A stretch of DNA of 40,101 nt, taken from the NCBI GenBank assembly GCA_028683785.1, contig JAQUHC010000004.1, positions 1 through 40,101 on the forward strand, in the 5' to 3' direction. The first letter of the stretch is position 1. Every line of letters begins with the position of its first letter. Below are positions 32,521 to 35,508 of this stretch, in pieces. Source of the stretch: Oscillospiraceae bacterium. Its GTDB lineage: Bacteria > Bacillota > Clostridia > Oscillospirales > Acutalibacteraceae. The notes beneath the pieces are model-generated. The model saw nothing but the letters and a program-made list of their open reading frames with translations, made no database searches and was not told the origin of the DNA. The translations under genes and the position numbers were made by a program.

Positions 32521-32597
32521 GGCGGTATAGCTCAGTTGGCTAGAGCATGCGGTTCATACCCGCAGTGTCGTTGGTTCAAATCCGACTACCGCTACCA
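32521..32597 (+). tRNA. tRNA-Met (CAT)
   Basis: GGCGGTA...TGCGG-TTCATAC-CCGCA...GTTCAAATC...TACCGCTACCA; cloverleaf arms pair; encoded CCA. Confidence 0.95.
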
Positions 32598-32624
32598 CGC
32601 GCCTCCAGCAGGGGGCGCATCTGC

Positions 32625-32699
32625 GGCCCGGTGGTCAAGCGGCTAAGACACCGCCCTTTCACGGCGGTAACACGGGTTCGATTCCCGTCCGGGTCACCA
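32625..32699 (+). tRNA. tRNA-Glu (TTC)
   Basis: GGCCCGGTGGTCAAGCGGCTAAGACACCGCCCTTTCACGGCGG...GGTTCGATTCCCGTCCGGGTCACCA; anticodon TTC. Confidence 0.95.
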
Positions 32700-32744
32700 C
32701 CACTCAATTCAGCCTGATTTCGGTTAGGCTGAATTGTACTATGA

Positions 32745-32821
32745 GGGCGCATAGCTCAGCCGGTTAGAGCGCTTGCTTCACACGCAAGAGGTCGGGGATT
32801 CGAGTTCCTCTGCGCCCACCA
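32745..32821 (+). tRNA. tRNA-Val (CAC)
   Basis: GGGCGCATAGCTCAGCCGGTTAGAGCGCTTGCTTCACACGCAAG...TGCGCCCACCA; anticodon loop TTCACAC. Confidence 0.95.
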
Positions 32822-32873: not shown

Positions 32874-33009
32874 TTGTGAATTATCATTACACGATACCGA
32901 AATACCGCGTCAGCCTTTTATTTTACTTTAGTGAAATAATACTTTACTTTGGTAATATGATGTTGTAAAATGAAAGCAGAAGTTTTTGAATGAGAGGATT
33001 GATTTGTAA

Positions 33010-33879
33010 ATGAAAAAATTCATGGCATTAATTATTGCAGTGGTTATGACAATGCTGCTTGCAACCGGATGTTCAAGTAAAACACATGAGTATGTCGTCT
33101 TGGATGAGGCACTTGCCGACGAGCAGTACGGAATCGGGTTCCGCAAAGCGGATCAGTCACTTCGTGATGAGGTTCAAAAAACCCTTGTTGACATGAAAAA
33201 GGACGGTAAGCTGGCTGAGATTACAGAAAAATGGTTTGGTGAGGACACCTCAACCGTGCCCGATACCTTTACTCCGGCAGGCAGCACCGACGATTCCCTT
33301 AACAAAATTAAGGAAAAGGGCAAGCTGATACTCGGTCTTGATTCCTCTTTCCCTCCGATGGGATATAAGGATAGCGAGGGGAATATCATCGGATATGACA
33401 TCGACCTTGCCACCGAGGTTTGCAAACGCATGGGGGTTGAGCTTGTGCTTCAGCCTATCGTATGGGCACAGAATGTAACAGAGCTTAATACCGGCAGAAT
33501 CGACTGCATTTGGAACGGTATGACCATCAATGACGAGCGCAACGAGAAAATGAACCTCAGCGAATCCTATATGAACAATCGTCAGGTTGTAATAACCTTA
33601 AAGGATTCGGGAATATCAAAGCTTACCGATCTGAAGGACAAATCGGTGGTTCTTCAGACAGGCTCCACGGCAAATGATGCATTAGACGACCGTGATGATA
33701 TCAAGAAAATTATCAAAGGCGGCAAAGCTACCTCGGTGAGCAACAATATTCTTGCAATGTACGAGCTTCAAAAGGGCAGAAGTGATGCTGTTATCATGGA
33801 CGAGATTGTTGCACGGTACTACATAGAGCGCCCGGATGAACTAAAATCAGAAGCTGAAAATATCGGCGCGAACACCTAA
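33010..33879 (+). CDS. Amino-acid ABC transporter substrate-binding lipoprotein, apparently circularly permuted
   Basis: Lipobox LLATGC; SBP_bac_3-like segments DDSLNKIKEKGKLILGLDSSFPPMGYKDSEGNIIGYDIDLATEVCKRMGV and IDCIWNGMTINDERNEKMNLSESY; the usual C-terminal segment EYVVLDEALADEQYGIGFRKADQSLRDEVQKTLVDMKKDGKLAEITEKWFG sits right after the signal peptide. Confidence 0.88.
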   Translation: MKKFMALIIAVVMTMLLATGCSSKTHEYVVLDEALADEQYGIGFRKADQSLRDEVQKTLVDMKKDGKLAEITEKWFGEDTSTVPDTFTPAGSTDDSLNKIKEKGKLILGLDSSFPPMGYKDSEGNIIGYDIDLATEVCKRMGVELVLQPIVWAQNVTELNTGRIDCIWNGMTINDERNEKMNLSESYMNNRQVVITLKDSGISKLTDLKDKSVVLQTGSTANDALDDRDDIKKIIKGGKATSVSNNILAMYELQKGRSDAVIMDEIVARYYIERPDELKSEAENIGANT

Positions 33880-33965: not shown

Positions 33966-34604
33966 ATGTCATGGGATAATGTCTTGAATACGACAGAGCA
34001 GATAGCGCAAGCTTCGCTGCAAACAATATCATTATTTTCATTAACCCTTATTTTCTCCCTCCCGCTGGGGTTATTAATGGCGTTTTGCAGAATGTCGCGT
34101 ATTCGTCCGCTTTCCTTGCTTATGCGGGGGTATCTGCTGATAATGCGAGGCACGCCGCTCATGCTGCAGCTCATATTTTTTATGTATGGGTTGAATCTGC
34201 CGTTTTCGCGTTTTCAGGTGGCGGTTGTTGCGTTTTCGCTCAACTATGCCGCCTATTTCGCCGAAATATACCGAAGCGGTATCGAAGGCGTTCCGGTGGG
34301 TCAAAGTGAGGCGGCCAATGTGCTCGGGTTTTCAAAAGGGCAGACCTTTTTCAGAATTATACTGCCACAGGTAATCAAAAAAATCCTGCCTCCAATGGGC
34401 AACGAATTTATGACATTGGTGAAAGATACCTCCTTAGCTCAGATAATCGGGGTGGCTGAAATTTCATTGATCGGTTATCAGTTGCAGCAGACCTTTGTCT
34501 CAATGATCCCGATTGTTATAGCAGGTGTTTTCTATCTGCTGATGAACTCTGTTGTCTCAAGGGGTTTTTCAATGGCCGAAAAGCGGCTGGGCTATTATCG
34601 CTGA
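33966..34604 (+). CDS. Amino-acid ABC transporter permease
   Basis: [100 protein letters not shown] (EAA loop). Confidence 0.93.
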
Positions 34605-34617
34605 AAGGGGGATGAGC

Positions 34618-35388
34618 ATGAGCATTTTGGAAGTAAAGAATATCCAGAAATCCTTTGGAAAAGAGCGGGTGCTGCGTGACATCTCCCTGAATGTCCAGCA
34701 GGGTGAGGTTTTGGCGGTTATCGGACCGTCCGGCTCGGGCAAGTCCACCCTGCTTAGATGTGCCACGCTGCTGGAGGAAATTGATTTCGGCTATATTGCA
34801 TACGGGGATTTGGTTATGGCTCGTTCCGAGGGAAATAACGAAAGAGCGGTATACAGTGCCGCCCCTGTTCTTCGGCAGATAAGGCGCAGGTTTGGTTTGG
34901 TATTTCAGAGTTTTAACCTGTTTCCCCATTTTTCGGTTTTAAGGAATATTACAGAGGCACCTGTGCGGGTTGAGGGGAAAAGTCGGGAAGAAGCCGAACA
35001 GCAGGCGCGGGCTCTTTTGGATAAGGTGGGATTGAGCGAAAAAGCCGACGCCTATCCATGTGAATTGTCGGGCGGTCAGCAGCAGCGGGTGGCAATAGCA
35101 AGAGCACTCGCCATGCAGCCGGATATCTTGTTTTTTGATGAGCCGACCTCGGCGCTGGATCCCGAGTTGACCGGTGAAATCCTGAAGGTTATACGAAGCC
35201 TCGCTCAAGAGAAAATGACCATGGTGATCGTAACGCATGAAATGGCATTCGCGCGCGATGTCTCCGACCGTGTAATTTTTATGGACGACGGGGTCATTGT
35301 TGAGCAGGGCGACCCGCAACAGGTTTTGGAAAATCCGCAGAGTGAGCGCACAAGAGCCTTTTTGTCGCGTTTCAGCCATAACGGATAA
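34618..35388 (+). CDS. Amino-acid ABC transporter ATP-binding protein
   Basis: Walker [28 protein letters not shown], Walker [17 protein letters not shown]. Start revised from 34552 to 34618 (AAAGGGGG upstream). Confidence 0.94.
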
Positions 35389-35407: not shown

Positions 35408-35508
35408 AGGGGCTGACACACATTTTTCATTGTGTGTCAGCCCTAAAACTATGCATTTATTCGGTGGAAATTTATGTGATGCCGTAGCGGCGCACATGTG
35501 TGCCGATG
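35408..35508. repeat. Dispersed repeat (inverted relative to 8187..8293), including a terminator-like hairpin
   Basis: GGGCTGACACACA-tttttcat-TGTGTGTCAGCCC (35410..35443) follows the ABC genes; flanking ctaaaactatgcatttattcggt is shared with the 8.2-kb copy; ends in the palindrome GTAGCGGCGCACATGTGTGCCG. Confidence 0.65.

Follow-up and report, generated by a model that had tools for sequence, protein, structure and literature searches.

TpMglB-2 (Tp0684) of Treponema pallidum is a natural circular permutant whose permutation its authors tentatively link to membrane tethering (PMC4990184), and circular permutation has also been documented by CPSARST in the glycine-betaine-binding proteins (OpuAC/ProX) (PMC2395249). 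For the family-3 solute-binding proteins (SBPs; PF00497) no report of a permuted member was found in the open literature searched. A canonical family-3 SBP reads N-M-C, where N denotes the N-terminal part of lobe 1, M denotes lobe 2, and C denotes the last strand of lobe 2 together with the C-terminal part of lobe 1. In the window (the whole 40,101-nucleotide stretch analysed here, from an Oscillospiraceae bacterium) the gene at 33010-33879 departs from this arrangement; judged from its translation, the product is a family-3 solute-binding lipoprotein (PF00497) whose segments run in the order C-N-M. We hold it highly probable that the gene encodes a working natural circular permutant, an amino-acid-binding lipoprotein of family 3 that supplies the permease and ATPase encoded downstream.

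The open reading frame, on the forward strand, starts with ATG and encodes 289 residues, including a signal peptide and a lipobox, LATGC, whose Cys21 is nearly invariant across alignment A1. Segment profiles find each segment once, in the rotated order, with a linker joining the native termini, and the displaced C segment runs from the last lobe-2 strand, EYVVLDE, through the lobe-1 C-part to ...KWFGEDTST (Table 1). Lobes and strands are assigned here as is usual for the family, in agreement with the secondary structure of the predicted model.

Table 1. Features of the permuted SBP gene and its surroundings (window coordinates).
Feature	Position	Strand	Evidence
tRNA-Met, tRNA-Glu and tRNA-Val genes	32521-32821
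Signal peptide, lipobox LATGC (Cys21) and short spacer	33010..33084	+	Translation
Displaced canonical C-terminal segment (C)	33085..33255	+	PDB alignments, PF00497 97-132, dN/dS
Linker VPDTFTPAGSTDDSLNKI between native C- and N-termini	33256..33309	+	Translation, low dN vs saturated dS
Lobe-1 N-part (N), conserved NGMTINDER motif (Arg177)	33310..33603	+	PF00497 1-98, invariant residues
Lobe 2 (M), last residues MDEIVARYYIER, Asp264 invariant	33604..33834	+	PDB alignments, relatives
New C-terminal tail and stop, non-conserved	33835..33879	+	Variable or absent in relatives, weakly constrained
Strong inverted repeat, 15-nt arms, 4-nt loop	33904..33937	+
Permease gene of the same importer	33966..34604	+	ORF list, gene neighbourhood
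ATPase gene of the same importer	34612..35388	+	ORF list, gene neighbourhood
Perfect 13-nt inverted repeat, terminator-like	35410..35443	+

From sequence comparison the homology of this protein to PF00497 is certain, and its departure from the family is one of segment order alone. PF00497 is its best Pfam match, with no sugar-binding family among the Pfam matches, and the score of 133.5 bits (cut-off 26.4) is reached in two stretches. In a genome-wide search both of these lie above the cut-off, with model positions 97-132 at 32998-33243 and model positions 1-98 at 33325-33654, so that the later part of the model comes before the earlier and the collinear order N, M, C is absent. This reversed pair of partial matches bears out the circular permutation proposed in an earlier, sequence-only reading of the locus and excludes a single collinear match. 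The protein sequence quoted in that reading also agrees exactly with the translation of the ORF. Residues 7-190 of 4ohn align to residues 93-275 of the protein (i-E 2.7e-35) and residues 194-250 to residues 26-82 (i-E 8.9e-7), and 3hv1, 6svf and 4zv1 also give two stretches in reversed order. The new termini separate the lobe-2 helix VARYYI from the strand EYVVLDE, at a loop through which the canonical relative L125 reads ...VARYYISKSDNPDQFKILDEVLSEE..., and because the break just precedes this strand, the last strand of lobe 2 opens the mature chain directly after the lipid anchor. The end of the protein had been taken for a second version of EYVVLDEALADEQ, but past YYIERPD the tail varies or is missing in relatives and is weakly constrained, and nothing therefore favours that identification.

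An AlphaFold model, for which permuted sequences were the only input, is confident (pLDDT 91.7, pTM 0.83) and, as the permutation would have it, predicts the secondary-structure elements in the expected order. Because Foldseek compares structures in chain order, no full-length match is expected for a permuted model; in the SBP structures that match best, only about 183-194 columns are covered, and the Foldseek matches listed include no solved family-3 SBP with the same order over its full length. Taken together with the canonical relatives, the model suggests that the chain would still fold into the usual two-lobe Venus flytrap with the break in a surface loop of lobe 2, that ligand binding would be ordinary, and that the lipid anchor would have moved from lobe 1 to lobe 2.

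The gene is under purifying selection, with a dN/dS of about 0.09 (0.066/0.775) relative to the same-genus locus L003. The displaced segment gives a dN of 0.046 and a dS of 0.772 (dN/dS about 0.06), and the linker is constrained (its dS is saturated but its dN is low); the loose parts in this comparison are confined to the signal peptide and the tail (dN/dS about 0.5). Arg177 and Asp264 are invariant in 31 sequences and align with the matching residues of 4ohn, and we take them to be the expected ligand contacts of amino-acid SBPs, with the ligand carboxylate and amine respectively. The permease and ATPase genes are intact downstream, as had been claimed, and at loci with enough room such genes lie directly behind most permuted SBP genes. 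For the ATPase a start at ATG 34612 is more likely than at TTG 34552 of the listed ORF. The inverted repeat that separates the SBP gene from the permease gene fits an intercistronic stem-loop, which would favour the SBP mRNA, and that 3′ of the ATPase gene is probably a terminator; the three tRNA genes lie immediately 5′ of the operon.

Ten ORFs of the same genus share the C-N-M order, which is carried by the same-genus loci L003-L011 and L014 and also by L012, L013, L038-L058 and others, and thus the orthologue search that had been suggested finds it in both same-genus and more distant genomes. One of the same-genus orthologues (L014/L057), of the same order, is split into three frames and is either a decayed gene or a poor sequence. 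Segment profiles assign 123 distinct ORFs of the fetched loci to N-M-C, 90 to C-N-M and 14 to M-C-N, counts that mirror the collection of loci and not natural frequencies. In an even sample of the class, full-length matches to the family II C-N-M profile (A2) occur in 35 of 391 genomes, with segment order checked directly for the fetched loci L234-L263; three of the 35 are single-contig genomes (G621, G649 and G768; family II).

Three other explanations of the gene itself have to be weighed. The source genome is a metagenome-assembled draft of 185 contigs, 88.9% complete, and the named family I carriers of C-N-M are all MAGs or uncultured, circumstances under which assembly or binning could have produced a chimera at about 33240-33290; however, identical junctions recur in many independent assemblies, purifying selection spans the linker, M-C-N is present in isolates, and there are single-contig genomes, albeit family II ones, that carry C-N-M. 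The many orthologues and the single-contig genomes rule out an assembly artefact, and we assign a chimera at the junction a negligible probability. Hardly more credible is a non-functional, decaying remnant of a tandemly duplicated gene, which the broken orthologue L014/L057 might recall, but which is at odds with the dN/dS of about 0.09, the invariant ligand-contact residues, and the intact lipobox and operon. Somewhat less remote, though still improbable, is a domain-swapped dimer, with the C segment at the start of one chain completing the fold of a neighbouring molecule and not its own. ArgBP of T. maritima, a related family-3 protein, is known to form helix-swapped dimers, and a linker of about 18 residues joins the displaced segment to the body, but the predicted monomer is confident without a partner. 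Further backing for the reading as a circular permutant comes from the confident model, from the conserved transporter operon, and from purifying selection, which acts on the linker as well as on each of the three segments.

Segment by segment, the window protein is similarly close to its canonical sister L125, with identities of 68% in N, 58% in M and 67% in C, which is consistent with an origin of the C piece from the same gene; a chimera in which C came from another paralogue is unsupported, as these identities are even. An in-frame tandem duplication giving N-M-C-N-M-C could have produced the order, if the first N-M and the last C were then lost to leave C-N-M. Fused NMC-NMC proteins in relatives make this route plausible, namely L264, a tandem fused lipoprotein of 528 aa, and L015, which reads NMC-NMC-permease, though the window protein has neither of them as a close sister. 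Half-way forms (C-N-M-C or N-M-C-N) were not seen among the fetched loci, and a search of the break points for direct repeats found none. Of the tandem-duplication origin put forward in the sequence-only reading, the route stands as plausible, and the remnant C-terminal copy is unsupported.

Trees for the tests of origin were built from sequences first restored to one common order, and the C-N-M groups in the AU tests were defined by segment order, not from the tree. In family I the C-N-M rows are scattered among canonical ones, with 6 changes of order among 78 rows and 8 among 89 (7-8 in bootstraps), and a single C-N-M clade is rejected (AU p 3.9e-10 and 5.1e-7; 1.9e-7 on N-M alone). A second C-N-M group, L260-L263 of family II, likewise sits among canonical rows, and a single clade is again rejected (AU p 7e-4). 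The AU tests thus reject one origin of C-N-M in both families, and the order appears, on these alignments, to have switched at this one loop several times among related proteins of Clostridia. A tree with L013 placed in the window clade is not rejected (AU p 0.25), and because L013 may belong there and reversions are possible, we claim several switches but not an exact number. A single ancient permutation, with its multiple origins made apparent by recombination between permuted and canonical genes or by reversion, would leave the protein unchanged. The canonical row L229, which pairs with a C-N-M row inside a large C-N-M clade, could be such a reversion, and the changes of order have no proven direction; nonetheless, one clade is rejected even on N-M alone, and in independent groups such as L043, L050, L052 and L053 the best canonical relative of N-M is either the same as that of C or closely related to it. 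We consider one ancient event unlikely, with repeated switching the better account.

The only other PF00497 protein detected in the source genome, itself an 88.9%-complete draft, is L002 (contig C12), which has the order M-C-N and is followed by permease and ATPase genes; both detected family-3 SBPs of this genome are thus permuted, and differently. The L002 model has a pLDDT of 87.4, and the PDB entry that Foldseek matches best to it is the SBD1-SBD2 tandem of GlnPQ (6h30; 228 columns), as though the predicted chain spanned the junction of two canonical domains; OpuAC is also among its matches. M-C-N relatives are present in the isolates Ruminococcus flavefaciens 007c and Papillibacter cinnamivorans DSM 12816, the viral contigs searched contained no relative of L002, and a single M-C-N origin is not rejected (AU p 0.075). 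An ORF of ~1200 aa at L167 (1-3633) and L195 (genome G038, C5) has four tandem M-C-N units before a permease domain; its M units score weakly, and parts of its interior can also be read in the canonical N-M-C order, which would allow pairing of the domains in two registers, a split domain being closed by the two ends of the chain. M-C-N domains are also fused to the permease in one ORF in L170 (two), L147 (one) and L205 (one), the last of which comes from the complete Anaerocolumna sedimenticola chromosome and has its M part missed by the profile. Some Ruminococcus-like genomes (L083, L096 and L102) have a canonical family-I SBP near an M-C-N SBP on the opposite strand.

It is unusual for a natural circular permutant to have canonical sisters as close as those here (about 58-68% identity per segment), and the repeated switching at one loop and the two different permutations in one genome stand out. 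It is possible, though we are doubtful, that clostridial family-3 lipoproteins repeatedly switch order by duplication and trimming, with the chain always opened in lobe-2 loops, and that such switches are favoured because they shift the point of lipid anchoring from lobe 1 to lobe 2 and thereby alter the docking or movement of the tethered protein. The recurrent rotation in relatives amounts to a natural experiment in protein rearrangement, and because it apparently recurred, with candidate tandem intermediates, both the path of permutation and its functional effect are directly testable. Ordinary profile annotation labels the permuted genes as normal SBPs, masking the rotation, and permuted SBPs are ready scaffolds for biosensors, in which the permutation is usually made by hand.

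The window protein is like other family-3 SBPs (PF00497; 4ohn, 3hv1, GlnH/HisJ type) in sequence family, predicted two-lobe fold and conserved ligand residues, and as the lipoprotein of an amino-acid ABC importer; it is unlike them in its rotated order, its new termini in a lobe-2 loop, and the predicted placement of its anchor on lobe 2. TpMglB-2 is also a permuted, tethered ABC-importer binding protein and has relatives in Gram-positive gut bacteria (PMC4990184), but it belongs to an unrelated family with a class I sugar-binding fold, and its permutation is in the N-lobe, with a fourth crossover and a different break point. The tandem SBDs of GlnPQ (6h30) resemble what the duplication route requires, fused NMC-NMC domains, whereas each of those domains is canonical and fused to the transporter. 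The glycine-betaine-binding proteins, like family 3, include permuted relatives within one kind of binding protein (PMC2395249), but they are a different family, and their order is nearer to that of the M-C-N protein L002 than to that of the window protein.
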